Positions 14,923-53,875 of a stretch of 64,000 nt of DNA are shown piece after piece; positions within the stretch are counted from its first letter, which is position 1; every line of letters starts with the position of its first letter. The stretch is taken from positions 16,336,049-16,400,048 of the forward strand of contig NC_080422.1 of the NCBI RefSeq assembly GCF_029873635.1, written 5' to 3'. Origin of the DNA: Malania oleifera. Lineage: Eukaryota; Streptophyta; Magnoliopsida; Santalales; Ximeniaceae. The translations under genes and the position numbers were made by a program. Under the pieces are notes generated by a model. It had not been told where the DNA came from. It did no database searches and saw only the letters and a program-made list of their open reading frames with translations.

Positions 14923-15222
14923 TACGATACTAGGTTCTATAGACTCTAGAGTGTAGGAGTAATAATACCAGAGTATAGGATAAAGGGATTTGAGGTCTGG
15001 TTTTGTAGTCTAGATGCGGGACTTCCGTGGTGGTTTGTGTGATTTTTCTAGGGTGACAATTTTAGAAAAGTCATGGTAAACTGTCGTCAGGTTGGGTATC
15101 TAGGTTGCAGGATTGAACCTTGAATTAAGATCAAGAAAGATGAATTAATTAGGAAAATGTACTATATGAGTTGAGTGAAACGTATAGTGAAGGGGTTCTG
15201 AGTTAAGTTGTTTGTTTTCAGG

Positions 15223-16260
15223 ATGGACCTTGGTGGCAATAGTGCCCACACTAGTGGAAGTGAGGGCGCTGGACCCTCAAGCACTACAAGTAGTGATTCA
15301 GATGTCGTCTTACGCAGCGTGGCACAACAGGTTATGGCAGAAATTGCCAAGAGTTCGAACGAACAGGGTGCTCTATTGGTAGGCCACGGTAGCTCGATCG
15401 AGAAGTTTATTAAGATGAGTCCTCCAGCTTTCTCAGAAGGGATAGATCCTGGAGTTGCGAAAAATTGGGTACAGGAGATCGAGAAGATATTTGCAGTGCT
15501 GCAGTATTCTGAGGAACAGAGGGTACTATTTGCCACATATAAACTGACTGGAGAGGCCGAGAGATTGTGGTCGGCGGTGAGGTTATTAGAGCAGCAGAGG
15601 ACGATACCTGTGGAGATGATGTGGGAGTGGTTTAAAGAAATATTCTTCAATAGGTATTTTCCAGCCTCGTCCAGAGAGGCTAAGAATAAGGAGTTCCTGA
15701 ATCTAAAGCAGGGACAGCTGTCAATGCAGCAGTACGCGGTGAAGTTCATTGAGCTATCTCGCTTCGCCCCGTACATCATTCTAGATGAGGTGAAGAAGGT
15801 ACAACAGTTTGAAAGAGGCCTGAGGAGATAAATATACAAGCAGGTATTGATACTGAAGTTGCAGGACTTCGCCGAGCTAGTTGACTGAGCCATTATAGCA
15901 GAGATTGGGGAGCGGTTAGAGGATGAGGAGAAGAGGCAAAAGAAAAGGTCCACGCCTTCTAGTTCCCAGCAGGGGGTCGAACATGGTTCGTGGAACAGGC
16001 GTGGCTACTACAACGACCGGAGGCAAGAGTACGAGAATCGCTATTTTCAGGGTGTACAGCCACCTCCAGTTTGCCCGACTTGTGGGAAAAGACACCTAGG
16101 GGAGTGCCGTGTGAGGCGAGGTGTTTGCTATTGATGTAGGGAGCCAGGGCATGTGATAAGGGATTTCCAGGCTCAGATTGGTGCTGCTCCTGCTCCTAGG
16201 CCTGGTCGAGGAGGCCACCAGGCGCCACGTGGAGACCAGCAGAGGAATATGGTCCCAGCC
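15223..16260 (+). pseudogene. Gag of Tekay-type Ty3/gypsy element
   Basis: The start ATG at 15223 gives an open frame to 15831 with the gypsy gag core ([26 protein letters not shown]). After stops at 15829 and 15886 the same frame continues through an Arg/Gln-rich stretch to a double-Cys region (CPTCGKRHLGEC) and a CCHC knuckle whose second residue block is broken by a stop (CY*CREPGHVIRDF, last Cys lost). Gag packages the RNA and forms the particle. The leader is homologous to that at 40495, so gag belongs with the 3' LTR family rather than with the Cassandra-like LTR. Confidence 0.85.
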
Positions 16261-19200
16261 AGGGTTTTTACTTTGACGTCGGGTGATGCTGAGGCAGCCG
16301 ACAACGTGGTGAAAGGTACGATTAATATGTTTTCATTTAAAGTTATTGCACTCTTTGATTCTAGTGCCACACACTCGTTTGTGTCCTTGGGGTTTGTTAA
16401 ATTGTGTGGGGTCAAAACACAGTTACTAGATGTCGAGTTATTAGTGGCTACACCGACCGGGTCAGCAGTGAGATGTAGTAGGGAACTTCGTGGTTGTCCA
16501 GTTGATGTTCAGGGGAAGATTCTATCTGCTAATTTGGTGGTGCTGGATATGCATAGGTTTGATATCATCTTCGGCATGGATTGGCTAACAGCTAATTCCA
16601 CTATTATAGACTATTGTGCAAGAGAAGTGATATTCAAACCTCTAGGGAAACCAGAATTCAGATTTATAGGGTCACGAGTGCAATCTTTACCTCAGATGGT
16701 CTCAGCTGTTCAGGCAAAGAGGCTGCTCCAGAATGGCTGTCTGGGATTTGTGGCTTTTGTATAAAGAATGTCAGAAAATGAATTGAAGCTTATCAATACG
16801 CCTGTGGTAAAAGAATTTATAGATGTGTTCCTAGATGAATTACCAAGTTTACCACCTGATCGTGAAGTAGATTTCCCTATTGATCTACTTCCAGGTACAA
16901 CGCCAATCTCTAAAGCACCATACCGAATGGCGCCAGCAGAGTTAGCAGAACCGAAAGTTCAATTGCAGGATTTTCTTGATAAGGGCTTCATACGACCTAG
17001 TGTATCTCCGTGGGGAGCTCTAGTTTTATTTGTGAAGAAGAAGGACAGGACTATGAGGATGTGTATAGACTATAGGGAGATTAATAAAGTGACAATCAAG
17101 AAGTATCCTCTACCCGTATTGACAATTTGTTTGACTAGCTCCAGGGTACACTGGTGTATTCGAAGATTGACTTCAGATCCGGCTACCATCAGATAAAAGT
17201 GAAAGCAGAAGACGTCTCGAAGACGGCCTTTAGGACCAGGTACGAGCATTACAAGTTTCTTGTTATATCATTTGGTTTGATGAATGCTCATGCGGTATTT
17301 ATGGACTTGATGAACAGAGTCTTCCACTAATACCTAGACCAGTTTGTTGTTGCTTTTATTGATGATGTACTGGTCTATTCTAGGAGCTATGAGAAGCATG
17401 AGATGCACTTGAGGCAGGTTTTGCAGACACTTCGGGAAAAGAAGTTGTATGCCAAGTTCAGTAAATGTGAATTATGGCTAGAGAAAGTTGTGTTCTTGGG
17501 GCATGTCATCTCAGGAGACGAAATTTCTGTAGATCCTAGTAAGATTGAGGTGGTAGTGAATTGGGCTTAACCGAGAAACGTACAAGAGATTAGGAGTTTC
17601 TTGAGGTTAGCTGGATATTACCATCGTTTTGTCGAGGGATTCTCAACTTTATCAGGGCCTTTGACACGAATGACTAGGAAGAATACCAGATTTGAATGGG
17701 ATGACAGCTGTGAGCAGAGTTTCTAGGAACTGAAGCAGAGGCTAGTCACAGCGCCAGTACTGATCATCGCTTTTATGGGTGAGGGGTATACTATCTATAG
17801 TGATGCGTCCTTGAAAGGACTTGGCTGTGTATTGATGCAGCATGGCAGGGTGGTGGCATATGCGTCCAAACAATTGAAAGAATACAAAAGAAAACTACCT
17901 TACCCATGATCTTGAATTGGCTGCAGTGGTACACGCATTGAAAATTTTAAGGCATTACCTGTATGACAAGCAGTGTGAGATTTTCTTCGACCACAAGAGC
18001 TTAAAGTATTTCTTCACCTAGAAGGAATTGAATATGAGGCAGAGAAGGTGGTTAGAGTTGATTAAGGATTTTGATTGTACTATCACTTACCACCCAGGGA
18101 AAGCAAATGTGGTAGCTTATGCATTGAGCAAGAAGTCCAGGGAATCGATGTTGGCGACTATGGAGATCGAGTATTAGATTACAATGAATCTGGAGAGATT
18201 TGGCATTGAATTAGTTGAGAGTGGTTCTAAGACTCACATTTATAGTTTAGTGGTGCAGCCTAATCTGCAAGAGAGAATTAAAGCTGCCCAGAGAGAAGAC
18301 CCAGAATTAGTAGAGGTGATGGACAGAGTGCAGGGTGGTTAGGGGGAGGAATTCAGCATTGCAGATGAAGAAGCTCTACGGTTCCGTACTAGATTATGTG
18401 TTCCTACCGATATTGATATTAGGAAGACTATTTTAGAGGAGGCTCATAGATCCTTATATACGGTTCATTCCGGCAATACGAAAATGTATAAGAATCCTTG
18501 TATATGGTTCATCCCAGTGCTTGACGTGCCAGCAAGTAAAAGCTGAGCACCAGAGGCCAACTGGTCAGTTGCAGTCGTTATTTATCCCAGAGTGGAAGTA
18601 GGATTATATTTCCATGGACTTCGTTTTAGGGCTACCATCAACATCCTATGGCCAGAATGCGATTTAGATGATAGTAGACTGGTTGACTAAGTCCGCCTAT
18701 TTTCTTCCTATCAAGATCAGTTATTCCCTCAGCCGTTTAGCGGAGATTTATATTTAGGAGATAGTTCGTTCTCATGGTGTTCCAGTATCCATAGTGTCAG
18801 ATCGAGACCCACGATTCATGTCACAATTTTGGAGGAGCTTATAGGAGGCTCTGGGGTCTCAGTTATCGTTTATCACGGCATTCCATCCTCAGTCAGACGG
18901 GCAGACTGAGAGGACAATGCAGGTACTAGAAGATATTCTCTCTGCATGTATATTAGATTTTGGGGGTAGTTGGACTCAGTTCATGCTGCTAGTAGAGTTC
19001 GCATATAATAACAGTTACTAGTCTAGTATTGGCATGGCACCATTTGAAGCACCGTACGGTAGGAGATGTCGATCTCCTTTGTATTGGGATAAGATGGGTG
19101 AGCAGCGAGTTGTGGGGCCAAAGCTGGTACAGCAGGCATATGATAAAGTTCGATTTATCAGGGATAGAATCAGTGCAGTTCAGAGCCGAAAAAAGAGTTA

Positions 19201-19665
19201 TGCCAACAATCGCCGCAGGAATTTGAAGTTGATGTAGGTAACCATGTATTTTTTAAGATAACTCCATTAAAAAGAGTTATAAGGTTTGGTAGGAAGGGTA
19301 AACTTAGCCCTAGGTTTATCAGTCCATTTGAGATTTTAAAGAAAGTGGGGCCGATGGCCTACAGGCTAGCTTTGCCACCTACACTATCCAGGATACATGA
19401 CGTATTTCACGTATCTATGTTGAGGAAATACGTCCCAGACCCTTCTCATATTATCAGCTATGGTGAGTTAGAGCTCAATGATTTGCTAGTATATGAGGAG
19501 GTACCAGTGCAGATTCTGGACCGAAGGGAATAGGAACTACGTAATAAGAAAATTCCTCTAGTAAAGGTTCTATGGAGGAATCATGCAGTAGAAGAGGCTT
19601 CTTGGGAACTCGAGCGACAAATTAGACAAAAGTATCCACAATTGTTCCAAGAAGTCCATACGTAA
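16261..19665 (+). pseudogene. Pol (protease, RT, RNase H, integrase, chromodomain-like end) of Tekay-type Ty3/gypsy element
   Basis: Domains appear in chromovirus order. Protease has LFDSSATHSF (about 16351, Gly of DSG lost). RT has PYRMAPAEL (about 16920) and FIDDVLVYS (about 17353). RNase H has YSDASLKGLG (about 17796). The integrase zinc region with its final Cys pair is near 18520-18535. The integrase core has SDRDPRF (about 18800) and PQSDGQTERTMQ (about 18890). A C-terminal [12 protein letters not shown] and a chromodomain-like VLWRNHAVEEASWELE end at 19665. The frame shifts near 17120 and 17890 and again in integrase, and many TAG/TAA stops occur, several at former CAG or TGG codons. 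Nonfunctional. Confidence 0.85.
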
Positions 19666-21944: not shown

Positions 21945-22859
21945 AACAAGGGTCACTTTTTTTATCAGAAGGCTTCAATAAAATCAAATATAAGATTTTA
22001 TGAGAATTTAATAGAAGAAGTTTGAAGAGAGAAATACTTCAAACTAGTTTCTTCTAAATCCAATTTTGAATCAGATCCTATTGTGATAGATCTAAAAAGA
22101 GTTAAGAAATGTCTAGAATCACAACTAATAAAGATTGAAAGACTGATTAGTCTTTATCAATTTAGAATTAGGCAGTGTGAGTGGTAGTTAGAATAACTCC
22201 ATGGAACTCTAGGATTGGAATCAGACGGCTAAAATCTCATTAATCTTCAAAAATGAAGGATAGTCAGTCCATCACAAAAAGAATTAGAGAAATAATGAAA
22301 ATTTATGAGGACAAAATACAATCTCTCAGTAAGGGAGAAGACCCTCAATTGTCTCAAGTCAGGAGTAGCATATCAAGAAGATATACTGTTAAAGACTATG
22401 AAGATGCACAGGAACAGGAGGTTCAAAGTGCTCTCAGAGACATTGATGAAACAAAAGTTTTGTCAGATATAACAGAAGATATCCAGAATGCTCAGGATGA
22501 TTTGAAGAAATTACTACATTGTGAAAAATGGATAGAGAATGAAGTCTCAGAGATTCAGAAGAATATCAATAAAAGGTTTAATGAGGTAGAAAACCTCAAG
22601 GCTAAGAAACTAGCCAGTATCGAAAAAATTATTGCATGAACCAGTAAGGGTTCAGCAAGAGGTGGATCTACAAGAGCAGGACCATCAAGTTATTGGGAAA
22701 CAATGCAAGTAAGTTTTCCAAAAGTTTCATCTTGGGATGCAAAGCCAGTATGGCAGCCCCTAAGAATGGAACCTCAACCATTTGAGTGAAAGAAGTTATC
22801 TTTCAAGGAAATGCTCCAAACCACGGAAAAACAGTAGGAGCCTGTTTTAAATTACCCAG
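21945..22859 (+). pseudogene. Endogenous caulimovirid: coiled-coil N-terminal region of first large ORF
   Basis: After the target site the viral reading resumes with several stops. The open piece 22253-22639 (128 aa) is rich in Glu, Lys, Gln and Ile with heptad-like spacing (DIQNAQDDLKKLLH, EVSEIQKNINKRFNEVENLK), consistent with a coiled-coil virion-associated or capsid N-terminal domain. It directly precedes coat-protein sequence in compatible order. The exact protein boundary is unclear. Confidence 0.55.
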
Positions 22860-24210
22860 GAAGAACTCATGAGGAATTCAAGCCAAGGAGAAGTGTTCCA
22901 GAGGGAGTACCCCAAAACGGAACAATCCTTAGGCTCAATTTCGAAAAGGATCCTGCAGTTGCGATTGATGATTGGGCTATGGATATTAGATATCATATCC
23001 TTAGAAGAGGAATCGAATCTTGGTCAATGGAGCCAGCATATAAATTTGCAGTAGCCACACTAAGAGGAAATGCTGGAGATTTTTGGGAAATACTTCAAAG
23101 GAACTCAGATGTATAAACACTATCAAAACTCCAGATGAAGTAATTGCTATCATAGCAGATTTCCTCAAATAGGAGTTTGTAGGATATTCGCTAGTTGATA
23201 AAGGTGACGAGCTGGTTGAAAAAGCCAGAATGCCTCTCACAAAGATTCAGATCTGTGACATGTGTTACTTTGAAGAGTTTCTTTGTGAATTTATTTCAAT
23301 ATTAGTATTACAAGCTTGGTCCACAAGATCAAGCATACGCAAAAGAAGTCTTTATCAATAAATTACCCGAGAATTGGCCAAAACTGGTAAAACAAGATGT
23401 TAAGCAGAGACTGGAGAGAGATACAGAAGTATCAGATACTCTCGGAGTTAGAGATGAAACAGTAAGACAAATGATAAGACTTTACTGTATGCAGCGACAC
23501 ATGTTTCAGGATGTAAGAAACATGCCTTATACGAATCCAGAGTGTTGTCCCAAAATAAGTGGGGTAGCAAGGAGATATGACTATAACCAGAGATCAACTA
23601 GATACTCAGAACGAGTAGAAACTAGTTGTGCAAGTGGAATATGCCATAAGAAGAAAACATCCAAAGTCAAAGGAAAGACTGGGAAGAAATTTGGAAAAAG
23701 GAAGAGCTCTAAAAAAGGGCAGAAAAACCTAGAAAAGAGATATCTTAGACCTAGTAGGGTTAGAGAAGATGTCAAGGAATCGTTCAAGAAGAAATATGGA
23801 CAATATCCTAAATGTCCGAAAGGAAAGACTCTGGAGAATTATGACTGTTATTGGTTTTGTGGCAAGAAGAGCCATAAGGCTAATAATTGTCCTGAAGTAG
23901 AGAAAAGGAAGGGTAGCCTAAAAAGTATCTTGATGGAGAATTCTTCAAAATTTCTTTATGAACCGATTTGGGGAGAAGAAATAGACTCAGATGATGACAG
24001 TATTTATTCTATTTTCTCAAAATACTCCGATTTGGAAGAAGAAGAGGAAGATTCAGAAGACGAATCTCCTTATAATCTGAAGCTAAGTCAGCTAAGACTA
24101 GCTATGATGAGAGTAGTAGATAAAGCACCAGAACTAGTTTCTCTAACAGAAGAAGAAGGAGATCTAGTGCAAACTGCAGAAACTAAAATTCCTTCAGAAA
24201 GTAGGGATTG
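22860..24210 (+). pseudogene. Endogenous caulimovirid: coat-protein region with zinc knuckle
   Basis: Broken frames give the capsid-core style stretch DDWAMDIRYHILRRGIES (about 22960-23015) and QDVKQRLERDTEV (about 23393-23430). The open part from 23471 then carries a Lys-rich block and a CX3CX4HX4C version of the retroviral knuckle (CYWFCGKKSHKANNC, about 23846-23890), followed by a Glu/Asp-rich tail (SDLEEEEEDSEDESPY). This order is typical of caulimovirid coat proteins. The extra residue between the first two Cys is unusual, since CX2C is normal. Upstream stops and shifts near 23115-23330 disable the copy. Confidence 0.7.
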
Positions 24211-24630
24211 TCAGGAATGGAGGATGCCTCGAGCCAGTTGGGTTGAAGCATACCAGACCTCATGGATACCTTACAAAGAGACTGTAAAGGTAATCGAGAA
24301 AGAGGTAATAGCAAAAGTATCCAGTACTGATGTAGGAACATTTATAGTTCCACTACTCACCACACAAGAAGTCCAGAGAGCAATGGATAAAAGAGTAAGA
24401 AATGTCCACTATGGAATTTTTCAGGAATGGAGGATGCCTCGAGTCAGTTGAGCTAAAGCATACCAGACCTTATGGATACCTTACAAAGAGACTGTAAAGG
24501 TAATCAAGAAAGAGGCAACAGTAGAAGTATCCAATACAGATGCAGGAACATTTATAGTTCCATTACTCACCACCCAAGAAGTCCAGAGAGCAATAGATAA
24601 AAGAGCAAGATATGTCCACTATGAAATTAT
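24211..24630 (+). repeat. In-frame 210-bp tandem duplication in viral coat/movement junction
   Basis: TCAGGAATGGAGGATGCCTC begins at 24211 and again at 24421, and the following 210 bp (70 codons) repeat with scattered substitutions. The second unit runs into the movement-protein-like stretch. The first unit is open; the second acquired a stop near 24450. The two copies have diverged at several sites, so the duplication is not a recent assembly artefact. Confidence 0.85.
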
Positions 24631-24870
24631 CCAAGTAGGGATAGATCCATTGGTAAGGAAAGGGCAAGATCTTCCTATCCTTATTGCAGTTATAGATGGA
24701 AGTATCGGTAATTTTGGTAGGTCCTTACTAGGAGGAGCAAGGGCTAACTTACATAAGATGGTTGGATGCTATGAGATCTCTTTGGCTTACATCAGCGTGA
24801 GTTTCTTACCACTTGCTTCATTGCTTGTATTTCCAATGAAACCAAGGGAATTCTTTTTTATATATAAGTC
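24600..24870 (+). pseudogene. Endogenous caulimovirid: movement-protein core fragment
   Basis: VHYEIIQVGIDPLVRKGQ, then ILIAVIDGSIGNF and LLGGARANLHKMVGCYEISL, resemble the core of caulimovirid cell-to-cell movement proteins (30K superfamily). It lies after the coat region, an order unlike badnaviruses, where movement comes first. Viral sequence fades near 24840-24870, so protease and RT are missing on this side as well as on the left. The open frame 24650-24937 probably runs past the viral end into flanking DNA. Confidence 0.6.
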
Positions 24871-26189
24871 AATGATATTAACTAAACGTTTGGATTTGGG
24901 CAATACTTTTTTTTACGATAATTGTTTTAAGGCATAGAACTGATAAAGAGTGCTTCTCATCCATACAAAATAGTTATTGGCACACATTGTGCATGTTTTA
25001 TGATTTGAAATTTTTTATTTTTAAATTTTATAAAATAATTGTCCATTTTTGTTAGTAGAGAAAATGAATAGTTATAATACTTGAGAATTAAAAAAATCAG
25101 ACTAAAAGTAATTGTAAAATGGATAACCTTCTTCCATTTGTAATGTTGAGTTGTGACTTTCATGCTTAGAGGATTATTCACTCGAAAATTGTTACAAATC
25201 GGAGGGCTTAGAGTGCTTTCCATGTGTGAAACTTCTCTATCTACTTAAACTAAATTAAGTGAGGGTACGTTGAGGTGACCCCCCCTCCCCAGCACGGTAT
25301 AGTACAGTACATATGAGTCAAGTCACAATATAATTTATTATAATATAAGGATAGCATAGGGTTTTCGTATGGAGCTATATATAAATATTGTAATCAAGGT
25401 TGAAACTCCAAGACATTTTTTGTTTAATTATGAAAATTGCATAGGGGCTTCATGGACGTAGGTATATTGTCGAAACACACAAATTTGTGTTCTTCTTTTC
25501 TTTATTAATTTTCTTTATTTTTCCATATTTACTATGCTTGCGCACGTGCAAATAACTCTTGAAAGTAATTTCTTAACAAGTAATATATGCAAGATAAATA
25601 TAATAAAGCATCATGAGCTATATATATATATATATATATCGTTACACGTAGTTCCCTTAAATTTTCAAAAGTGATATATAGGAGGTGTTTGATGGAATTA
25701 AATATCAAGTGCTGAATATTAAATGTAATTTTGAACTTGTGAATTTTTTATCTAACATTTCACCAAAATTATCTTAATTTTAAAAAAAATAGTACTCATA
25801 TAGTCATTTATTTTATTTATTAATATCTTAGCAAAAAAATTAAAATTCTAAAAACAATACATCTATTTCATTTTCTTTTGAAAAAATACAATTTAAAATT
25901 TAAAAAACAACATCAATATAAATATAATCGATCATATTTTTTATGTATCGCTTTTTTCCTCTTCAAATTTTCAGCAAATCTAGTTATATAACTTGTAATT
26001 ATAAAATATTATTTATCTAAAAGTTCAAAAGTAAAAATAAAAATTATAAAATATTATTTTTAATAGAAATGAGTGATTTGATGGTTACCCAACCCAAACC
26101 TGTCTAAACCGATAGGTTGGGTTTGGATTAACTCATTTATAAACGAGTCAACTCTCAAACCCAAATTCAGTCTAAAAGGGTGGATAGTG
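24871..26189. other. AT-rich spacer
   Basis: No coding frame, LTR end or repeat family recognised. Contains a short (TA)n run near 25620-25640 and a direct GGTTGGGTTTGG-type block near 26085-26130. Confidence 0.5.
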
Positions 26190-27020
26190 TGTTCGCTACA
26201 AATCTCGCACCCTTTGAACTTTGTAGAGAGACAAAAAATGCAAGAAAAATAAAGGAAAATACAAACTACAAAATTATACAATAGAATGTATATTAAAATT
26301 TTTTAGGTACGACCTTTGGTTTATCTTCTGATTAATCCTCCTTTAGAGTTCCGTCAAGGGCCGCAATAGCTTGATCTCTGGTGGAACAAATCTTGTCCAA
26401 GTCTTCACTTTGGCGGTAGAGACAATCTTGTAGGTGAAGCTTTGATCATGAAGTTGGACATATTTTTATGGATTTCAGAGCTTGACCTTTAGATCTCGTG
26501 ATATAGACAAGTTCGGTATAAGGGCTTTATTTGAAAATAAAGTTTGAAATTTTTGGGGCGAGTTTGGTAGTTTGGGCTCCTAAAGTCGAGATGATTGATT
26601 TCTTCCCTCCACCGATGTCTAGCTGGGGTGAGAAGATGTTTAGCTTGGGGTAAAATTTTAGAGGAAGATTTGATTTAGGGAGAACAGTTTGGTATGATTT
26701 GGGAATTTATGGATAGATTTGGGAGTATTTAGTGTTTTGGACAGAAATATTTTGTGGAATTTGAAGTTTGGGGGTTAAAGTGAAAAAAAATAGCTAGACT
26801 TTTGGAAGGCTAATGTGTAGAGTTTGGGAATTTTGGAGGACGTATTTGCAAAGTCAATGCAAACTTCTCCTCCTCTCCTTTGGTTTTGAACATTGGGGAG
26901 ACAACACTTTGCTTTTCTTTTGCAGAGTGGGAGAGTGGATTTTTTTTTTTTTACTTTGCCTTTTTTTTAGCAAAGTTAGTGGGTTTTGTCAGAGAAGTGG
27001 GTGGAGTGTGACAGAGAGAT

Positions 27021-27087
<67 letters not shown>

Positions 27088-27419
27088 GAGAGAGAGAGAC
27101 TTCTCTCTTTATTTTTATTTTTATTTTTACTCTGGCTTAGGTAATCCGGAGCAGCAAGAGGAGATGGAAATGGGGGTGCAATGGCAGAGAGAGCTGGGTT
27201 TGAGGAGGATGGATAGCAGAGGAAGAGCTGAGGCCGGGGATTAGAAAAATTGGAAGAACTAAGGCCGGTAATTAGAAGAGGAATATCTATTTTCTCTTCT
27301 TCTTTTTCCCTTCTTCCGACAAGAATTTTTTTTTCTTCTTGCCTTTTGCTTTTTCTTCCCTCTCTTTTTCTCTATTTTCTTTCATTTTTTTAATTTCAAA
27401 ATTTTAGTGTTTATAAATG
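26190..27419 (-). repeat. 3' LTR of Tat-lineage element
   Basis: Shares its length and order of blocks with 51813-52998 and 59918-61105: TGTTCGCTACAAATCTCGCACCC at the low end, a region with CCTCCACCGATGTCT, a purine/pyrimidine-rich part, and TATAAACACTAAAATTTTG at the other end on the minus strand. It lacks the 40 bp that follow the other two copies on the high side, so either those 40 bp are LTR lost here or both others landed in similar sequence. Contains (GA)n at 27025-27083. Confidence 0.75.
27025..27083. repeat. (GA)n microsatellite
   Basis: Uninterrupted GA run inside the LTR. The two sister LTRs have only short GAGAGA stretches at this place (about 52640 and 60745), so it expanded in this copy. 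Confidence 0.95.
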
Positions 27420-27432
27420 CCCCCACTTCAAG
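27420..27432 (-). other. Polypurine tract of Tat element
   Basis: Minus strand ACTTGAAGTGGGGG abuts the 3' LTR. It marks the downstream limit of the internal region, so the captured genes at 27665-30387 lie inside the element. Confidence 0.6.
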
Positions 27433-27664
27433 TCTCGGTGTGGCGCGTAACTTGTGACGCGATATAAATCGAGTATTGAAGTTCTGCAGATTTGTTGACC
27501 CCCGTGGACAATCCTGACTGGTTAAAGACAAAACACATGGTAAATTTCTTTGCCCACAAAGTCTTGAGAGGGGTTGGTGCTCGAGATGCCACGATATGGA
27601 TTTTCTGGGGATTCTAGGACCTCACGACCTATCCCACTGTGGAAGATCCCTTTGATGTGGAGGG

Positions 27665-28276
27665 CCCTTCTGGATCTTCCCACAGTTTTTTGGGAATGGC
27701 ACCTTCATGCATTGGCTAGTACTCCTTTAGCTTTACGAGGAGCTCATTTGCATTAGTACTTTGGACAATTACGCTCCTTTGGGATGGTTTAATGAAACTA
27801 TCCTTGATGGGTTTTTCGATGAGCATGAAGAAGTCATCGAAGTAGCCATTGATATTTAACAAGCCTATAGGCTTGTCATGAATGCCTAACGGTGCCCAGC
27901 TAATAGCCCCCAATAGCCCACCCATGGCTTCATATCCCCCATAAAGGGCAATGAAACAATCAGCATGATGGGCCATTTTCGCTTTCCTTTGATGTAGGTC
28001 AGGCACGGTCCTTCGTTCTCTGATTGTCTCCTCCCCTCATAGTGCTTCGAGTGTAAATCCAAGCACATGGCCACCACAGTCATTGACCACCCGAGCGACC
28101 AAACCAAGGATTCTGGTAGTTTCTCCTCCATAGACGAGGTCTAGCCCCTGTGAGGCTAGTTCCCTTCCTAGTTCAATGGCGGCATTTCCATAGCTGCCTC
28201 TTCGGCCCATGGTTCTCTCGTTGAAGACATAAATGCTTCTGAACTTTGGATCAGCAGGCTGTGAATAAGTGGCCAT
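27665..28276 (-). pseudogene. LOG-like: LONELY GUY-type cytokinin phosphoribohydrolase retrocopy inside Tat element
   Basis: LOG enzymes remove ribose phosphate from cytokinin nucleotides to give active cytokinin. From the ATG at 28276 the frame reads AAIELGRELASQGLDLVYGG, DLHQRKAKMAHHADCFIAL, GIHDKPIGLLNINGYFDDFF and NELLVKLKEY, in the family order and nearly full length. Two in-frame stops (28037-28039 and 27716-27718) are each followed by further LOG-like sequence in the same frame. The nucleotide-binding PGGYGTxxE motif has decayed to YGGYEAMGG and the FCGSS motif to FNERT. Known plant LOG genes have several introns; none is visible, which indicates an RNA-derived copy. It lies 3' of two WOX-like ORFs, on the element's coding strand. 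Confidence 0.88.
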
Positions 28277-28517
28277 TTTTTTTTAGGTATGGATGATGTA
28301 GAAGCGGATCTATAATGTCTACAACCTGAGGGGAGCAAGCCATATAGTTAAGGAAAGGTTCCCCCTTGCGCAAATCAAAGCGATAGGTAGACATTGTCTG
28401 CTGCGAAAGTCAGGCTAATAATGCGTGCTACGAAAGTCGTCAAATGCACAGTATCCTCCTATTTTTTGGTCGACAGGGAGTGTCGTTGACGAGCAGTCAT
28501 AGTTGACATTGCACCCC

Positions 28518-29024
28518 CTAACGTTTTGTGTAGGGATACAATTTTTGAGAATTATCAGACACATTCGCGTTTGGTAAGGTTGCCACCTCACAGCGGGAAA
28601 AGAATAGAGTCTTCTTATCTGGTCCCTCCCTTGGTGTGGGACCTATAATGCAAGTGGTATGAGGGCGACGAGAGAGATCAGGCTCAGTACTTGATGTAGC
28701 TGTGCATGGTTCAGTAGTGGCGAAAAACATGACAGTTCGCCCCTTCCTAGCCTTATGATTCCTGAACTAGTAGTAGACATTCCAAGGCTTGATGTCATCG
28801 AATTGCTGAAGTTGAGTAGAAATTTATGAGGATTCCACCCAGAAAAGAACCCGACCTTCATTATTATGGAACATCTCTTCCATGATCTATACATGGGCCT
28901 GCATCGAGCACCACTTGTCAACATACTCGAGCTTTGGATGTTGAGTAGGTTCCATTCTTCTACACTTCTACAGTGAAATGAGCCAAGTGATAGAACTTGT
29001 TCTAGGTGTGATGGGATCATGCAT
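28518..29024 (-). pseudogene. WOX-like: WUSCHEL-clade homeodomain retrocopy (second WOX) inside Tat element
   Basis: WUS/WOX proteins are homeodomain transcription factors that hold stem-cell fate in meristems. One frame aligns without gaps to the WUS-type homeodomain (about 28746-28919): an initial KW, then MEEMFHNN, STQLQQF, NVYY and FRNHKAR. The NHKAR ending is typical of the modern WUS clade. Stops fall at 28968-28970 and at three homeodomain positions, one replacing the Trp of the WF.N motif (TGG to TAG) and the others plausibly former CAG/CAA codons. Removing stops would need no frameshift. A KKTLFF block near 28590 could be a decayed WUS box. The start may be 29024 or the ATG at 28955 nearer the homeodomain. 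Confidence 0.8.
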
Positions 29025-29089
29025 TGTTAAGAAGAATTCAAGACCTTTGTCTCTCCATCACTTGTGCTTTAAATGTGATTAATCCCCCT

Positions 29090-29281
29090 CTTTGGCCACC
29101 ACTTGGGTTGGTGGCCTACTGGCAAGGAGTCTATCATGCCTCCAAGAGGTCACGGGTTCGAGTTTTTTGGCTCCCCCACTTTGCCCAAGTGGTCTCTTGC
29201 CCTGGATTTACTTCAGGGGTAAGTGAGGTACAGTCGATGAGTATCCACCTATGAGTCTGTCATTTTTTACTGCTACAATCA

Positions 29282-29357
<76 letters not shown>

Positions 29358-29370
29358 TTACGTCTTATTA
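29090..29370 (+). mobile_element. tRNA-derived SINE with (ATT)n tail
   Basis: An A box (TGGCCTACTGG, 29112-29122) and a B box (GGTTCGAGTT, 29155-29164) are spaced as in tRNA-derived pol III promoters. They are followed by a GT-rich body and a long (TTA)n run (about 29281-29356). It is inserted between the two WOX-like ORFs, opposite to the element's coding strand. No target duplication was identified. A 61-aa poly-Leu frame over the microsatellite is not a gene. Confidence 0.65.
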
Positions 29371-29503
29371 GAAAATTTTATATGGATCAAATTTGTCATG
29401 TCTTTTTCTAACATATGTGTGGGGGCCCGAGTCTAAGACTTAGGTCGACACCCGCATCGATCGGAGTGCTTGTAGCATCACTGCTACTTGCTCTAGATTC
29501 CGC

Positions 29504-30387
29504 CTAATGGTGATAGACTCTAGTAATGTCACTGGTATAGGCTAGGAAAAGTGGAAGAGTACCTCCTTCTCCACCGCAAGAAGAAGAGTCTCCTTCTATT
29601 CTTGGTGGCATGGGGTTGGGATGCTTAAAATGACTGAAGGTCATTCCACCTAGTAATGAGTTGATCCTTGGATGCCAATACGTTCGACCTACTGTATAAT
29701 AGACCTGCTGGAAATGGTAGTGCAGGCCAGCATTGCCAAAAACCCCCATCGTGGTGACTATGGCGCGAACAGTATACACACTAGGACCTGTTGAAGTGAT
29801 GAAGGTGGTAAGCTCAACAATCGGAGCATTGATGGTGAGAGTGGTGGCAAGAGGAGTAGTGGTCAAGGTAATGTTGTGAGCACTACTTGGTGTGGCAACT
29901 TTGGAAGTGGCGAGATCAATGACTAGTGAAGTAGTGGTAGCAGCAGTGAGATCAATGGTCAGTAGGTCTAGCGAGCGGTCCCCTTGACCGACTTCTTCTT
30001 ATGATACCGTCGATTTTCAAACCAGAAGCGTACATCCTTTGGTTTGACAAGGCCATATCGTCGGTGCTCCCCTATGAGCAAGTAGACTAGCTTCAAGGAA
30101 GGAAGTTCCCCCTTGTTAGGGTGAAATTCTACCTCTAGGATCTCTAGTTATTCCCTTTTGGGCGCCCATTTAGGGGTTGATGAACTTGCGTTGCCCCTTG
30201 TAGTTTGTGTCATTGGGTGATTTGGCATCATCTTTGTGGTAAGAGATGAAAGTAGCCTTGGCCAAATGGAAGAAAGAAGGAGATGATCAGGTAGGATGGC
30301 TAGGAAGAATGAGTCTGAGTGGCTCACTTCTTTTACCATACCTGCCTCTTTTATAACAAAACCCTCCTTTTTTTTTGGGCCGTTCAC
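29504..30387 (-). pseudogene. WOX-like: WUSCHEL-related homeobox retrocopy with WUS-box-like motif (first WOX) inside Tat element
   Basis: The ATG at 30387 lies 48 bp after the pol stop. The frame reads about 70 residues, then a WUS-type homeodomain (about 29976-30174) that aligns gap-free over its length: KWAPKRE, LEILEVEF, HRRYGLVKPKDV and FWFENRRY, keeping Trp and Asn of the recognition helix but with Glu for the usual Gln. A TAA at 30148-30150 replaces a residue that is Gln in most family members. A one-base shift near 29975 leads to a frame that runs open to 29504 and carries GGTLPLFLA (about 29560), a WUS-box-like TLxLF repressor motif 18 residues from the end. Only one stop and one shift separate it from a full ORF. 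Confidence 0.85.
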
Positions 30388-30435: not shown

Positions 30436-31520
30436 TTATGTGTAGTAGCGCTTTAGGAACTTGCCATTTATTGGGCCAATGCTAATGTCTTCGTGGTCGA
30501 GTAGCATATGAGAATTATTTGTGTAGGCTTTTTGCACCAAGTATGGACCATCCCATTTGGAAGTGAGCTTATCGCCAGGCCGGTGTTTCAAATTAGTAGG
30601 ACTTCATACTACGAGGACTAAGTCTCCACATTGGAATGATCATGGACGGACCTTACGGTCAAAGGCCTTGGTGAGTCGAGCCTGGTAGCACTCTAGTTGC
30701 TATTGTGCTTGGAGCCTTTTTTCATCTAGAGCCTCCAGCTCTTCCAATCGTAAGCATGCATTTTCTTCTTCAGTGAGGCCTTCTTGGATTACTATGTGCA
30801 GCAGTGGTATTTGTTTCTCAAGGAGCACAACTTCAATGTTGTAAACAAGGGCGTAGGGCATTGATTGGGTAGGTGTATGATAAGTCATACGGTATGCCCA
30901 TAATGCTTCGGGAACCCTATCATGCCAATCCCATTTTTTTCTTGGAGACCACTTCACATAGTAAGTTGCAAAGGGTCTTGTTGAACGCTTCGGCCAACCC
31001 ATTAGCATGAGCGTTATACAAGGAAGACTTGTATTGTTTGAAGTTGAACTTCTCGAAGAGTCTATCCATCAAACTGTTGTAAAAATGTTTCTCATTGTCG
31101 TTAATGATGAACCGAGGAATACCATAATGGTAGATCAAGTGGGTCCTAATAAAGTTCACAACGTTCTCCTTCTTCACTTCTCTAAACGGGATCACTTCGG
31201 CCTATTTAGAAAAGTAATCTGCAGCAACCAGTATCAAGTGACCAAGGGAGAACTTTGGCAATGGTCTGACCAAGTCAAGGCCCCATGCTTCAAAGGGCTA
31301 AGATGCTATAGTGAGGTGTAAAGGTTCTAGTGGCTGATGTATATAATTTGCATGTAATTGACACGCTTGACAGGTCTTAGCATAATCCATGGAAACATAC
31401 ACCATCGTAGGCCAATAGTATCCTATCCTTTTGATTTTATGGTGAAGTTTTGGTCTGGATTGATGTGTGCCACACACACCAGTGTGAGCTTTTTCTAAAG
31501 CCTGCTTCACCTCGTCGCCA
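30436..31520 (-). pseudogene. Integrase of Tat element
   Basis: The zinc-binding N-terminus (31298-31510) has AHTGVCGTH and TCQACQ. The catalytic core shows IINDNEKHFYN (Asp box) and YNAHANGLAEAFNKTL (Glu box). The C-terminal part has SKWDGPYLVQKAY and INGKFLKRYY before TAA at 30436-30438. It inserts the cDNA into the genome. Several stops (for example after LHLTIAS and after KKKMGLA) break the frame. The first captured WOX ORF starts 48 bp downstream. Confidence 0.85.
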
Positions 31521-31669
31521 CTTAAGCATCATAAGAAGAGTTCAACAAAGGATCTTCGATACAATGTATCCTTGTAGTATATGTATCGGGCAGTGTGTCG
31601 ATGCAACTCTGTCTTGTGACAAAGATCTTCAGGAGGCTTTCCATGCTGCAGATAGTCAATGATGGGCTC

Positions 31670-32420
31670 TCACCAGTCCTCGATTTTGATGACATGAAAG
31701 AATATATCATTTGTTTCTTTTTCTTCTTCATCTTCGATCGGTGGCACGATCCATTTTCGGTATACACTAACAATTGTTGTCTCGCTATCTAATTTGGCTA
31801 TTGACGTGGCCAGGTTGGCTAGTGCACCTGCTTGAAAATTCTCCTTCCATGGGATATGCTCCAAGACAATGCTCTCAAACTCTTCCAGTTGACATTGGGC
31901 ATACTTGTGATATGGCACGAGATATTCCTTTTAGACGTCGTATCGTTTGGAGAGCTGGTTGATCATGAGTTGTGAGTTGTCGTATACTTCAAGCACGGGA
32001 ATTTTCAAGTTAGTGGCCATTTGGAGGCCAATGATCAATGCTTAATATTCAGAGACATTGTTTGAGTATAGTTCACCGAGGATGAATACATACGGCAACA
32101 CTTGGCGTTGAGGAGGAACAAATGCTACACCGGCACCAGCACTATCACGTTGTGCAGCTCCTCAAGGAACATTGCCCACGGCGGCAAGATGTCTATTTGG
32201 AATACCTCCTCATCTGGGACGTTATCTGTGAATTCCCAATTAGATGGGGCCATATGATCCGCCAGAAAGTTGGCAAGAGCTTGCCCCTTAACCGCCTTTT
32301 AAGACACATAGACGATGTCATAACTTTGCAGTATAACTGCCCACTTAACGAGTCTTCCGGATAGGACCGGTCTGGATAGTATATATTTTACCAAGTCAAC
32401 TTTTGCAATGAGGTGGATCA
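31670..32420 (-). pseudogene. Dual RNase H region (RT-linked and archaeal-type) of Tat element
   Basis: The minus strand reads the archaeal-type RNase H signature between about 31940 and 32130. The sister copy at 57538-57738 shows it better (DGAGAGVVFV, CSNNVAEYQALI, EVYDNSQLVIN). It continues through the QCQLEEFESIVLEHIPWKEN stretch (31670-31918). The extra RNase H between RT-RNase H and integrase is the hallmark of the Tat/Ogre group. Confidence 0.75.
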
Positions 32421-33560
32421 TATGGGATTGCATGAAATGCTTCAGCTTATCAATAGCGAAGAAGAGTGCCAGACATATTTTTCAATGGGCGAGTAACTTA
32501 GCTCTGGACCAGCGAGCGTCCTGCTTAGGTAGTAAAGTACTACCTCCTTTCCTGGCTTATTTTCTTGGGCAAGTAAAGTTCCTAAGGATCTTTCTTGTAC
32601 AGCGATGTAAAGAATCAATGACTTTCCTTGGATGGGTGCACCTAAGATTGATGGATTTAAGAGGTAGTCTTTTATGTTTTAGAAAGCTTTAGTGCATGCC
32701 TTGTTCTACTCGAAGTCAACTCCTTTTTTCATCAATTGGTTAAAGGGTTGACATCATCCTACCAGATTGGAGATGAAGTGTCAGATGTACGCTAACCTTC
32801 CTTGAAGACTTCGCAACTCTCTCAAATTCTTGGGCTCTGACATTTTTTTCATGGCATCGATATTTGATTGGTCAACTTTGATGCCGCAATGGCGTACAAT
32901 AAAGTCGAGAAACTTGCCAAATGTGACGTAGAATGTGCATTTAAGTAGATTCATCTTTAACTGGTACTTTCAAATCCTATCGAACACCAATTAAAGATCT
33001 TGCAGGTGCTCATTACACTTCTTTGTCTTCACGACGAGGTCATCGACGTAGTATTCCACCTTCTCATGGAGTAGGTCATCAAAGATATTTTTCATAGCAC
33101 GCTGGTAAGTAGCACCAGCATTCTTTAGCTCAAAGGGCATCACTTTGTAACAATAAATCCCTTTTGGCATGCAGAAGGCTGTGAATTCTTCGTCCTCTAG
33201 GGCCATCCTTATTTGATTATAACCGGAGGACCTATCCATGAAAGACAATGCTTCGTGACCAGTAGTTGCATCCACTGTGATTTATGTTATGGGTAGGGGA
33301 AATAACCTTTTGGACATGCTTGGTTGAGATCCCTGAAGTTAACGCAAACTCGGAATTGTCCATTCTTCTTTCGGACAAGCACTATGTTTGCAATCCACGT
33401 CAAATATGTGACTTCTCGAATGAAACCTGCATTGATTAGGTTGTTTACTTTTTCTTCGAGTTTTGGGATAAGCTTGGGGAAGAATCGGCACTAGGGTTGC
33501 TTCATTGGTCGAGAGCCATTCTTTGTAGCCAAATGAAGCATCGCAACCCTTGGGTCAAGG
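32421..33560 (-). pseudogene. Reverse transcriptase of Tat element
   Basis: The open part 32991-33275 carries LSFMDRSSGYNQIRMALED, CYKVMPFELKNAGATYQRAM and the catalytic YYVDDLVVKTK (33039-33053). Broken frames on both sides continue the palm and thumb. Stops elsewhere inactivate it. Confidence 0.85.
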
Positions 33561-34609
33561 CCAAGCATCTCCTTGTAACTTCATGCAAATACATCCTTGT
33601 ATTGACTAAGTACATAATTGTACTCTTCTTCTTGTTTGAGTAAGGCACTTATGAAAGTAGATCAAGGATCCTCTAGAGTGCCGAGGTTGACTTCTTTAAG
33701 CTCTTCAATGGTGGCTCTAGCTCTAGAGGAGTGTCCTCAATTTCGTTGTTTAACAAATCGGGCTTAGTTACTAATTTTGATGTGGTATGACGTGTATGAG
33801 GACTCTTCCTCTCTTTCCTCATTGTTGTGACCACGCCTCTAAGCTTGGGTGTTGGTTTGTCCTTCATTTGTTGATGTTTATTTGATGTTGACTTCTGTGG
33901 TCATCCTATTCCTTCTCCAAAATGGAACTTTTTCACCAACTTCATGGTTATCTCCATGTTGGTTTGACAATGATGGTTTGCCTAACCTTTGGAAGACCAA
34001 CATTTTCCTTGTGCCTAAAATTCATTTGAACACAGATTTCTGAGGTATAAGATTTGGTCCTCTGATGCGTTCAAACATTGTCCCTCAAGGCTTTGATGAT
34101 TAGTGCTCTTTTGTCTCATTAAGCACTTGATTTTGTGCGAGATCAGGATCTCTAATGCGATCAAACACTGAACCGTGAGATGCTACTGCAGGGGAGTTTT
34201 CTTCTCCGTTGTCCACCCAAATCACGATGGCGCATATGTTCGTTGATTGCTTATTACTCTTTAATGTGATGCAAATAGGAGGCTTTTGTTGATAACCCAA
34301 ACCAGGCCAAGTCTTGGGAGGTTGAGCGACAACATCTTCGGTGCATGTTGCCGATAGTGGGCTTACTAGCTTTGGATTCTTGAAATCATGTCTAGCCTTG
34401 GGTAAAATTTTGTAGGCATTAGGGTCAAACCGTTCATTGGTTCTCCTATTCGGGAGTGCACCATGTTCGATTGCCCCCTTTGTTGGCTGGACGAATCCCT
34501 TTAATGGTTTGGTGGTCACCACTGAATCTATCTTTGGCATTGGTAGGGAGAGTGCATCCCTCATAACACGAATGTCTTTGGGTTTTAGACTGCCACATCT
34601 TTCCTCTAG

Positions 34610-35130
34610 CTAGGGATCAATATAGCAAAAACAAGATTCCTCCTTGTTGTATGGCTCATATTTCTTTAAGCTACTTCCAATTGTCGAAACCTCTGATGCG
34701 ATGACCTCGCAGTTGTCCATGTCTGTGTAGAATACTGCATTAGCTAGGTGGGCCTCAGCTTTAACGAATAGTTTCAAGTCAACATTGAATTTTTGGATGT
34801 CGTTCTTGTAGTACTTGAAACATCGATGTAGAATTGACAAAGAGATCCCATTTCCATGGATCCAGCGGTGGCCTAACAACATCTGGTATGTTGTTCGTGC
34901 ATCAATCACATGGAATAGGGTGTTGGATGTGAGGTCGATGATGGTAAGGTCTAGGCGAACCATGCCAGTCACTCGTTGACCCTTTTGATTGAAGCCTTGA
35001 ATCATCAATCGACTTTTGGATAGTTCATTGATGTTCATGCCAATCTCTTTCATGGTGGTTTTTAGGATTATGTTGACTGCGAATCCATCATCAATAAGGA
35101 TGTGGCTAATCCTCTATTCTTTGGCATACC
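34610..35130 (-). pseudogene. Aspartic protease of Tat element
   Basis: An active-site-like IDDGFAVNI (about 35085) is followed by LSKSRLMIQGFN, VIDARTTYQMLLGHRWIHGNG and a cysteine-containing tail, the Tat protease pattern. The usual Ser/Gly around the catalytic Asp is altered. Confidence 0.75.
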
Positions 35131-35689: not shown

Positions 35690-38255
35690 CTAGCCTTCAC
35701 AACAATCCATCCCTCCTCAGGCTCCTTGTGGATGGCTGAGTCTTTTAGCGAGTCTTATTGATCAAGCCTGGCATTGGTGTTGGGCCTCAAAGGGTGGACT
35801 TGAGCAGGGTGCGGCAAGGCTTGACTTCTCTTACCCTTTTTACTTTTCCTTGATTTTTTGATGAATGTGGACCATCCATCGCGATTTCATCCTCCAATTC
35901 TAATGAAGATGTCCAGACGTCAAGGTCGTTAGTCATGAGTTCATACAGAGTCAGGATATTTAGGTTATCATCCCGGGGCTTATCCGGTTAAGCGTTGAAT
36001 TCTTTGAAACCTTGGTATACTATGAATTGGGCACATATTGCCCCTTCAAGCAACTTGGGTCCTTCCTCTCTTATCTTGATGAGCTGCTTAGCTTGAGGAA
36101 GTGGTGTTTCATATGGCTCCCATTTCATCGTCGGGGTTCGTCACCTTTTTTTTGCTGTGTGGCAGTGTACCTTGGTGGCATTCCACATGTGTGAGACGTT
36201 TATAGGTTCCAAGGTTCCAAATTGAATAAACCATGGATCCTCCTTTGATGTAGTACTTTTTTGTGTAGGCCCAAATGGTTTGGTAGTGATGGTGACCTGA
36301 TTTGCCTCGGCCACGTCACCTTTGTCCAAGACAATCTTGTCCTAATTTTTTAGCCTCATGATCAGTTCTTTCAACGCGAAGTATTTCTCCATTGGATGGC
36401 TAACTATAAGATGATATTTGCAGAATTTTGGGTCTTTGACCCTATGCTTTTCATCAGGACACTTGGGCTCCGAAGGCTCTATGAGTTTGGCCTTCAAGAG
36501 CTAGTCCAAAATACCTAACATGTCGAAGTCCGAGAATGGATAGTTCTGTTGACCTTATGGGTCATACCCTATTTTGATAATGACAAGTACTCTGGTATTT
36601 AATGTCTATCTAGTTTGTGTGCAGGTTTATATTAGCAAATCAATTGATGGCACACAAAGTAAAACCTGAAGACCCTGAAGATTATTTATTGTTGTAATTT
36701 ATATTATTTGGGCCTGTAATAATTTATACCGGTCTGTAATAATCTCTGCATGTCATGCATGTAGGTAATTGTAAGCTCAAAATGACCGTAGAATGACCAT
36801 AGGGACCGAATGACCGTGGGGACTATCTTAAAACGGCCTCGGTAAAAACCCTAGTATGAACCTAGGTCCCAACACTCACACACATATCATATAATATACA
36901 GGAGTGTTAAATATGTGCTTAAAATGAATATTATTAGGGATCTTGTGAGAGCTCGGGCGACCGAACCCCTGGAGTTCAAAACTCCTCAGGCGCCCGAACT
37001 ATCGAGAAGTCAACAATTGATTTAGGCTCTCGGGCAACCAAACATATTTGTGCATACCTTCCCCGGGTGCCCGAACCCTTGAAAGGGAACTTTTCACCAA
37101 CTCGGACGACTGAACCTTCACGTTTAAATCAGACCCCAGGCGACCCAACACACAAGTTTGGGCTACCGAACCTATGACGAGGCACCCGAAATTACAAAGT
37201 AATGCTTTTTACTTTACTTCAAGCCACCAAACCTATGACCAAGCACCCAAAATTATGAAGCAATGTTTCTGACTTTACTTCGGGCCACCGAACTTGAACT
37301 CAGGAAACCGAACTGTTTTAAAAGTCTTTTATATATGTGTCTGTTCGGGCGACTGAACCAAGGTTCAACCACCCTAACCTCGCTGGGTTGAAATTAATTT
37401 AACTGAGGTAAAATTGAGTTAAGTTGGGTTAGTTGGTCTTTGCATTCCAAGCTCAACGCGCGCCATCTATTGATGTACTAGACAACTGGTTCCCTTTTTC
37501 TTTGCTTCGTATTGGTAACCTCCATCATGCTCACAATGCGTCGGGTGCTGAAGAATCTATTATGGAACTCTCTCTCAAGTTGTTCCCAACTGTCAATGGA
37601 TTCGGGTTCAAGATTGAAAAACCACTCGAATGCATTGTCCTTTAGAGATCTAACGAATTTTTTCACCAACAGATGATTGTATGTCCCCGCGTTGTTGCAA
37701 GTTTCGACGAAATGGGCTATGTGCTGCTGTGGATTACCTCTTCCATAAAATTGATGGAATTTGTGTTGTTGATAGCCCAATGGCATCCTTATCCACGTCA
37801 TCCTTTTCGAATAAGGCTTTACATAGGTTTTAGAGTCTTAGTTGAGCCCACCTTGTTGTAGTTTTATAGTGTTAGCTATCATATCCTGCAGTTGTTTGAC
37901 TGATAGCGATGCGACGGAGGTAGATGGCACGGCATACGCTGGTTCATCTTAAGGCTTTTCTGCCGTAGAAGTGTTCGCTAGCATGGCATGTGGAGCAAAA
38001 CCGAGAGGATACAGTTACTCTTTGTCGGATTCAGGATCAATTTGAGTTTTCCCTTTTAAGAAAGTGATCTATTGATCCTTGTATTCGAGGGCTTTAGCTA
38101 GCATCACTAGCTTGTTCTCCAACTCAACAATCATTTCATCTGTGTTTGCCGCATTTGTGGTCATTACTGTGATGTTAGCGTCGACAGATGATCCTGTGTG
38201 GAAGATTAGGGTGGATGGTTACGTTGCACCATCCTTGCTTAACCTAGTGGAGTGG
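35690..38255 (-). pseudogene. Gag of Tat element, interrupted by a copia LTR fragment
   Basis: The capsid core at 37478-37801 (MPLGYQQHKFHQF, LVKKFVRSLKDNAFEWF, LEREFHNRFF) matches the sister copy at 58678-59198. The C-terminal part resumes at about 36546 down to 35690 (NQVTITTKPFGPTQ, DPWFIQFGTLEPINVSH), matching 57919-58254. Compared with the sister copy, about 340 bp of gag (counterpart of 58305-58648) are replaced here by a copia LTR piece. Confidence 0.75.
36547..37436 (+). mobile_element. Truncated copia LTR replacing part of gag
   Basis: Starts TGTTGACCTTATGGGTCAT, the same start as the copia LTR at 57474 (reverse strand). It holds an array of GTTCGG/CGCCCGAAC-type motifs (about 36950-37370). 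It stops near 37430, before the 3' half of the LTR, and gag resumes out of register, so deletion accompanied or followed insertion. No TATA or primer site was seen in it. Confidence 0.7.
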
Positions 38256-51645: not shown

Positions 51646-51787
51646 TTCACCAACTGCAATCTTTTTTTTCAAGGCCCCCTTTTTTTAAGGCCTTTTCTTT
51701 TCTCTTTTTTTTTTGGCCTCCTTGTTTTTTTTTTCCTTCCGAGGCTCTCTTTTTTTTTTTCAAAGATGAAGAGATGAGAGGCAAAGT

Positions 51788-51805
51788 CATCCTACCAGGC
51801 GTGCC
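51788..51805 (-). other. Primer-binding site of Tat element
   Basis: The minus strand reads a decayed TTGGCACGCCTGGTAGGAT. The sister copy at 59894-59911 has TGGCACGCCCGGTGGGAC, a clean primer site next to the LTR. The tRNA species was not determined. Confidence 0.65.
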
Positions 51806-51812
51806 AAGAATT

Positions 51813-53030: not shown

Positions 53031-53433
53031 TTACCACCTCTTATCCCATATCTCCTTTGCAGAAGTACATGTCATAACTCTATTAAATTCATTAACATCA
53101 AGTCCACAATAGAGATTATCCATGGCAGTAGCATTTACACTAACAGCTTTCATATCCTCATCAATATATTCATCTTCAGTCTTAGGTACTCTAATTTCAC
53201 CTTGAGTTTTCATGGGAACATAGTTTCCCTTAAAGACAACTCTCCACACCTTCCAGTCAATGTTCTAAAGGTAAATACGCATCCTTTGTTTCCAGAAGGT
53301 GCAATTGACATCACTGAAAACAGGAGGACGTGTGAAAGAGGGTACCTCATAGAAAAGGATTACAGTGTTATGAGTCATCTAGATCTTTTGCAGAAAAATG
53401 GTTAAGTCTAAGCAACTAGGCTCTAATACCAAT
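53031..53433 (-). pseudogene. Copia gag start with primer-binding site
   Basis: The minus-strand frame 53249-53031 reads GNYVPMKTQGEIRVPKTEDE, LYCGLDVNEFNRV and TCTSAKEIWDK, the start of plant copia (SIRE-like) gag, then runs into the Tat LTR at about 53040. Upstream, at 53413-53432 on the minus strand, TTGGTATTAGAGCCTAGTTG is a tRNA-Met-type primer site directly after the LTR. This shows that the LTR at 53434 is the element's 5' LTR. Confidence 0.85.
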
Positions 53434-53875
53434 TGTTGACTTTACTGTAATCCCAAGAGGGGGGTGAATTGGTATTTTAAATTTTTTTCTCCCCTAGGTC
53501 AATTATCCAGCAACAATATTACACAACCTAGAGTCAATCTAAAACAGATAATGAAATGAATTAATAAACGCAGCTAAAATTTAAATTGCGAAAGTAAAAT
53601 ATTCAAGCTTGCACAACAAAGCAAGTAAAGAGAGAAAACACCATATATGTTATCAAGGTTCGACAAATGTGCCTACGTCCCCGCCTTAGCTCACAAGCAC
53701 AAGGATTCCACTATGACTCACTTAACGGGTGGAGCGGCACCTAATACAACCAGATTAAATTAAAGTATGGCTGACCTCAACCTTTACAACCAATCCTTCC
53801 AGGCTGGATTAAAGCCCCCTCAGGCCACGCCTAGAATACAACCAATTCAAAATACAAAGTGTGTACAAAATGAGT

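Follow-up and report, generated by a model that had tools for sequence, protein, structure and literature searches.

WUSCHEL-type homeobox and LOG-like gene copies captured by a plant Ty3/gypsy retroelement lineage, with signs of past selection on LOG and WOX1

A lineage of plant retroelements captured copies of WUSCHEL (WUS)-type homeobox (WOX) genes and of a LOG gene, and both LOG and one of the homeobox genes, WOX1, bear the marks of past selection; what their products did can be proposed from sequence. We consider it likely that the lineage kept at least LOG and WOX1 as cargo, with a WOX protein acting on the host and a LOG-derived protein as partner. Retention of these two genes is argued from their order and position, from the derived features that the LOG copies share and from low dN/dS ratios. 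The window, the whole 64,000-nucleotide stretch analysed, corresponds to C6:16336049-16400048 of a 1.49-Gb assembly, and the host is a plant as judged by the genes and repeats of the window. The element that carries the cargo, element 1, lies on the minus strand, with the following features:

26190-27413, minus: 3' LTR of element 1, 85% identical to 51813-52996 and 84% to 59920-61103
27419-27432, minus: polypurine tract (PPT), a purine-rich sequence adjoining the 3' LTR
27659-28276, minus: LOG-like gene, intronless, with two in-frame stops and an altered active-site motif
28731-28916, minus: WOX2, WUS-type homeodomain, three stops
29065-29357, no strand assigned: SINE-like stretch with a (TTA)n run in its sequence, between WOX1 and WOX2
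29440-29998, minus: C-terminal part of WOX1, a 164-aa open stretch with TLPLF, one stop, then DLSLRL
29971-30210, minus: WOX1, WUS-type homeodomain, one stop
30436-31528, minus: integrase pieces (ORFs), the last ending at the pol stop, 30436
31670-35113, minus: pieces of the aRH end, RH, RT and protease (ORFs, our own motif reading)
37478-37837, minus: gag piece (ORF), with 76-81% matches at C10
38261-49213, no strand assigned: other LTR element nested in element 1, with 2.2-kb LTRs (88.7%)
51646-52998, minus: leader end and 5' LTR of element 1 (LTR about 51813-52998)
53043-61130, minus: second, deleted element of the family, 5' LTR at 59920-61103, without WOX or LOG

A sequence-only reading had placed two WUS-type homeodomains and a LOG-like gene between the pol stop and the 3' LTR, on the strand of the element. 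We found the same arrangement with a nearly full-length LOG-like gene, and the coordinates given earlier were correct to within tens of bases. From the 3' LTR the element runs through the cargo and the pol stop to pol and gag pieces that reach 38260, beyond which follow the nested LTR element, the remaining leader, a second insert and the 5' LTR, ending at about 52998. As insertions would, both inserts have break points with an overlap of 5-6 bases when compared with the neighbouring copy, and no target-site duplication of element 1 was recognised by eye. The two LTRs differ by a K2P distance of 0.127 (1,173 columns), and the window copy is a dead relic. The stretch beside the PPT was found again next to LTRs at other loci, and RT and RH pieces of 60-75% identity are also present elsewhere. 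A second RNase H (aRH) between RH and INT is a feature of angiosperm Tat elements, and the domain order read from the ORFs is PR-RT-RH-aRH-INT. From this reading of the domain order the element is probably of the Tat group of Ty3/gypsy. Pfam RVT_3 matched the aRH piece of the second element at E 0.006, under its cut-off, and the integrase piece had no Pfam match.

The LOG-like gene (28276-27659) is a single frame of 206 codons. It matches Pfam Lysine_decarbox (E 1e-24) and the Arabidopsis LOG structure 2a33 (E 1e-56), and was the only LOG recovered when a host-LOG profile was run against all six frames of the 64 kb (9e-74; next 3.1). Its nearest relative among 5.8 billion proteins, P0001, is 59% identical and is an uninterrupted 208-aa protein whose sole context is a 1,495-bp ENA contig. 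Ordinary plant LOGs rank after P0001, at ~50% identity to the window LOG, and a protein search with the window LOG and P0001 gave no further lineage members in the best 120 matches. A predicted model of P0001 (pLDDT 81, from an alignment of mostly host LOGs) had 2a33 as its best PDB match, and the element copies are LOGs by fold and sequence.

The window LOG and P0001 form one clade (support 100/99) in a 48-row tree whose host rows are a sample of best hits, with other LOG subfamilies thinly represented. A shortened loop is common to both, and of 147 columns with a conservation of 85% or more among 150 host LOGs, 24 carry an identical replacement in the two. Sites altered in both sequences are less frequent where conservation is highest (20/102 vs 35/74, P 9e-5). 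Changes private to P0001 avoid conserved columns (10/65 vs 11/32, P 0.03), whereas those private to the window LOG do not (17/72 vs 7/28, P 0.54), which is the pattern to expect if P0001 is live and the window copy dead. When neutral walks to 50-52% identity were simulated, 4.0-4.8 stops were expected; runs with zero stops, the state of P0001, made up 0.7-1.7%, and those with two or fewer made up 14-23%, so that the two stops of the window LOG are unremarkable and say little for that copy.

The sequence-only reading had this gene make cytokinin. PGGXGTXXE is given as the active-site motif of LOG in the available text of PMC4979012, and it is altered in P0001 and in all five element LOG copies read, which leaves a cytokinin-making role unsupported; a working enzyme was accordingly set aside. 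Among multi-exon LOG loci of the genome GGYGTLEE is kept in three of the four looked at, the fourth showing the preceding exon only.

Both homeodomains are of the WUS type. WOX2 (28916-28731) gave WUSCHEL 6ry3 as the better of two PDB matches (E 9e-8) and no Pfam match for the piece; the WOX1 homeodomain (30171-29986) gave WUSCHEL in the PDB (E 4e-6) and Pfam Homeodomain at E 6e-5, just over its cut-off. Across all six frames of the 64 kb the WUS homeodomain hit these two places alone below E 1 (at 4e-8 and 2e-6, the next hit being at 2.5), and plain tblastn with it found WOX2 (E 3e-8) and missed WOX1. One frame change lies between the WOX1 homeodomain and the C-terminal part, where TLPLF may be a WUS-box-like and DLSLRL an EAR-like motif. 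Relatives of the WOX genes were absent from the protein database at E <= 1 (0 of 2,945 candidates), and scans of IMG/VR gave no relatives. Seven WUS-type site patterns were counted in three LTRs, with none clearly in excess and one depleted. For lack of a clear excess we rejected self-regulation through such sites, and targets in the host are more likely than the promoter of the element itself.

A genome search with P0001 returned 25 matches, of which eight rows are element LOG copies at four loci: the window, C2:73.67M with its duplicate C2:73.87M, C10:3.996M (a plus copy and a minus copy, the latter in two rows) and C2:138.23M (two rows). Short pieces make up the remaining 17 rows, and 16 of these 17 loci hold two or more LOG3 pieces, L039 holding one. 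LOG3 pieces break mostly near residues 32, 65, 74, 108, 132 and 179, and the full-length element copies run unbroken through these points. Because the introns of the multi-exon loci are absent from the element copies, the capture was of processed (spliced) copies.

At C2:73.67M (L009/L010) and C2:73.87M (L012) the end of INT, WOX1, WOX2 and LOG follow one another in that order, and integrase pieces 61-76% identical to those of the window precede the cassette there too. L010 and L012 share sequence past the LTR end (94% and 98%), and we therefore rejected them as independent cases and count one insertion, duplicated. The two are the arms of an inverted segmental duplication, ~190 kb from each other, and the same insertion of the element is present in both. 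The flank of the C2 cassette had no match to that of the window, and the full triple thus occurs in two independent insertions. The order WOX1-WOX2-LOG behind an integrase, which the sequence-only reading had proposed to look for elsewhere, recurs in this second insertion and bears out its view that one retroelement lineage made the capture.

Correctly oriented LOG stands immediately ahead of the PPT stretch and an LTR at C10, in two copies, and at C2:138.2M, in one broken copy; the 10-30 kb read at these loci showed no WOX. The C10 piece (L014, C10:3.994-3.999M) has its two LOG copies tail-to-tail between inverted LTRs, that is, palindromic element 3' ends. In the window's second element pol is deleted as well as WOX and LOG being absent. 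Two further insertions (L006/L018 and L007/L019) have a common deletion junction that removes LOG and part of WOX2, and their wider flanks do not match, which indicates that a cargo-poor form moved. A fixed set of three genes is accordingly not supported: LOG was found at four loci and was lost in a shared deletion, and the WOX1-type homeodomain occurs far more widely.

Selection was gauged by dN/dS (NG86). Decay of methylated DNA inflates synonymous change, and we therefore simulated a CpG- and transition-biased null. Its median was ~0.65, with a lower bound of 0.40-0.46 for LOG, and a ratio below 1 was for that reason rejected as proof of constraint. All six LOG pairs between the window/C10 and C2 lineages fall below this null (0.27, 0.24, 0.20, 0.22, 0.24 and 0.35). 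Younger pairs within lineages gave 0.41, 1.03, 0.72 and 0.42, which counts against retention; decay weighs more in such pairs. Wrong-frame controls for LOG ranged from 0.31 to 1.89. The WOX1 homeodomain gave 0.30 and 0.21, values reached by 6/400 and 0/400 null runs, and equally low ratios (0.32 and 0.21) came from one wrong frame, the second reverse, which has its third codon positions in common with the true frame. For the C-terminal part of WOX1 the ratios (0.48 and 0.37) lie in the range of the null or of its wrong frames (the latter 0.44-0.69), and that part consequently carries no signal in the window/C2 comparison. WOX2 (0.64 and 0.61) sits at 34-39% of the null and has no constraint signal, and two comparable integrase pieces out of three gave 0.04 and 0.23. 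Past constraint, for which the sequence-only reading had proposed to look, is supported for LOG and WOX1 but not for WOX2, which is within the null; the full triple is present in two insertions only.

The genome holds WOX1-like sequence in much greater number. A search with the WOX1 homeodomain gave 677 candidates, and the 150 scored and listed, on C1-C13 and C424, may include host WOX genes beside element copies. By hand count 117 of these 150 are stop-free within the match and 33 contain a stop. A single score recurs in many of them, together with an open frame of either 236 or 253 aa. Besides the window, 21 listed matches are at 54-74% identity, two of them stop-free, and these 21 probably stand closer to the family of the window. 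The flanks were read as well for two of the 150, C3:1.223M (L052, 236 aa) and C1:123.646M (L053, 253 aa). Both matched WUS, have 230 codons free of stops with LSLFPT near the C end, and contain no WOX2 or LOG in the piece read. L052 is flanked by direct repeats of at least 2,077 bp that are 99.9% identical at a spacing of 5,624 bp; this is one copy, and the piece read ends inside the repeats, so that any LTR ends, PBS, PPT and TSD would lie beyond it and a tandem array may also account for this locus. Matches to gag, pol, WOX2 or LOG were absent below E 0.18. With its direct repeats, dispersed matches and lack of a gag-pol match, the high-copy WOX carrier is a candidate non-autonomous LTR element. 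The search for intact copies, called for by the sequence-only reading, was answered in part: uninterrupted WOX frames exist elsewhere, and the window copies of LOG and WOX carry stops. Over 194 codons dN/dS of the window WOX1 was 0.29 (0.15-0.46) against L052 and 0.27 (0.14-0.42) against L053; the C2a WOX1 gave 0.45 and 0.50 against the same two frames, and L052 against L053 gave 0.42 (0.21-0.87). The main cargo thus seems to be WOX, which LOG accompanies only rarely.

A stretch resembling 29065-29357, which we presume from its box B motif to be SINE-like, also lies upstream of the WOX frame in L052 (196-502) and L053 (130-426), with a 73-74% match, and may be a trace of common history between the two carriers. 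Short tandem repeats whose translations are similar precede LOG in the C2 copy (L010, about 1936-2235) and WOX in the high-copy repeat (L053:607-987).

The alternative that survives best is that host cDNAs were taken by chance, perhaps repeatedly, and were useless to the element, in which case low dN/dS would reflect constraint on host genes before separate captures. It draws on the absence of LOG and WOX2 from related copies, on the continued movement of the deleted form, on the lack of constraint on WOX2 and on the wide occurrence of WOX1-type frames, host WOX genes lying outside the comparison. We nevertheless hold it improbable. P0001 and both LOG lineages have the altered motif, the shortened loop and many replacements in common and hence descend from one non-host ancestor; order and place are identical twice; and WOX1 stands at 0.27-0.29 against the high-copy ORFs.

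Still less probable is an origin of the many WOX matches outside retroelements, as a host gene family or as tandem arrays. Flanks were read for 2 of 150 matches and both repeats for one, with any repeat boundaries, PBS and TSD outside the pieces read, and some matches are 5.3-5.8 kb apart. Most matches are single, however, and spread over C1-C13 and C424; the two read lie on different chromosomes and are 91-94% alike along 4.5 kb; and the direct repeats, at least 2 kb long, are nearly identical. Separate entry of the three gene pieces into the window locus after the element had died, for which the broken state of the copy, its later insertions and the SINE-like stretch between WOX1 and WOX2 might speak, is rejected as highly implausible, since the same cassette stands in the same order in another insertion with another flank and LOG precedes the PPT and LTR at two further loci.

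On the preferred reading, capture followed by retention, a Ty3/gypsy (probably Tat) lineage took up spliced WUS-type homeobox and LOG copies between pol and the 3' LTR, and at least LOG and WOX1 were kept as protein-coding accessory genes while the lineage diversified. An uninterrupted WOX gene of the same kind is present in a dispersed repeat, read in two copies, that has long direct repeats and gave no gag-pol match. We infer that the WOX protein would bind DNA as a regulator, probably as a repressor, and change the expression of host genes in the meristem or in precursors of the germ line, to the advantage of the element. The plant germ line is set aside late, from shoot meristems, and any element that could bias the fate of a meristem would profit directly, so that the cargo may carry the germ-line benefit suggested earlier. 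The LOG-derived protein, its active-site motif lost, may have been a dimer partner or nucleotide-binding module, and perhaps blocks host LOG. LOG is described in the available text of PMC4979012 as a dimer in which dimerisation forms the active pocket, which makes the predicted role of a poison subunit possible. Only tentatively would we extend the analogy to a plant counterpart of transducing retroviruses, in which selected WUS-type genes, amplified as uninterrupted ORFs, would act on shoot-meristem identity and so reach the germ line, one branch having in addition a poison subunit derived from LOG. The idea of meristem bias becomes testable with selected WUS-type genes in a dispersed element. 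Element WOX genes could also inflate WOX counts in genome annotations, and it is puzzling that a hormone enzyme should have lost its active site and still be under purifying selection within a mobile element.

Earlier work on plant LTR elements with meristem genes may have been in circulation, and priority is unsure. In 2011 Steinbauerova reportedly noted a similarity to LOGL4 in two Athila-like elements. Citrus and Populus have Ty3/gypsy elements with a LOG/YgdH domain that are already published (PMC9289625, citing Steinbauerova 2011); like the present elements they carry a LOG-type domain, but the available text on them deals with neither WOX genes, active site nor selection. The sequence-only reading knew of no element with this set, which stands for the WOX cargo and not for the LOG domain: a full-text literature search, with preprints outside it, found no WOX-carrying element. 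Orchid Tat/Ogre-like elements with an m6A demethylase ORF likewise kept a host-derived enzyme gene, over several replication rounds, but as described in that available text (PMC9289625) they hold one gene for a working enzyme, in contrast to homeobox genes and an altered LOG. Retand, of the Tat group, also has an extra coding region between pol and the 3' LTR; in the available account its ORFs are antisense and mostly TRP28, whereas those here are sense and host-derived, and the terms WOX, WUS, homeo and cytokinin do not occur in the main text (PMC11963269). Captures by maize Bs1 and by rice and sorghum LTR elements similarly place a host gene inside an LTR element, usually in sense, but in the accessible parts of these reports (PMC7264820, PMC3726574) they are mostly in single or few copies, unlike the retention across diverged element lineages seen here.

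Elsewhere in the window, ORFs at 15202-19533 on the plus strand are Ty3/gypsy-like gag-pol by eye, those at 22244-24937 look pararetrovirus-like by eye (zinc-knuckle and coat-like stretches), and 61364-62542 on the minus strand is an uninterrupted F-box/kelch ORF of 392 aa.
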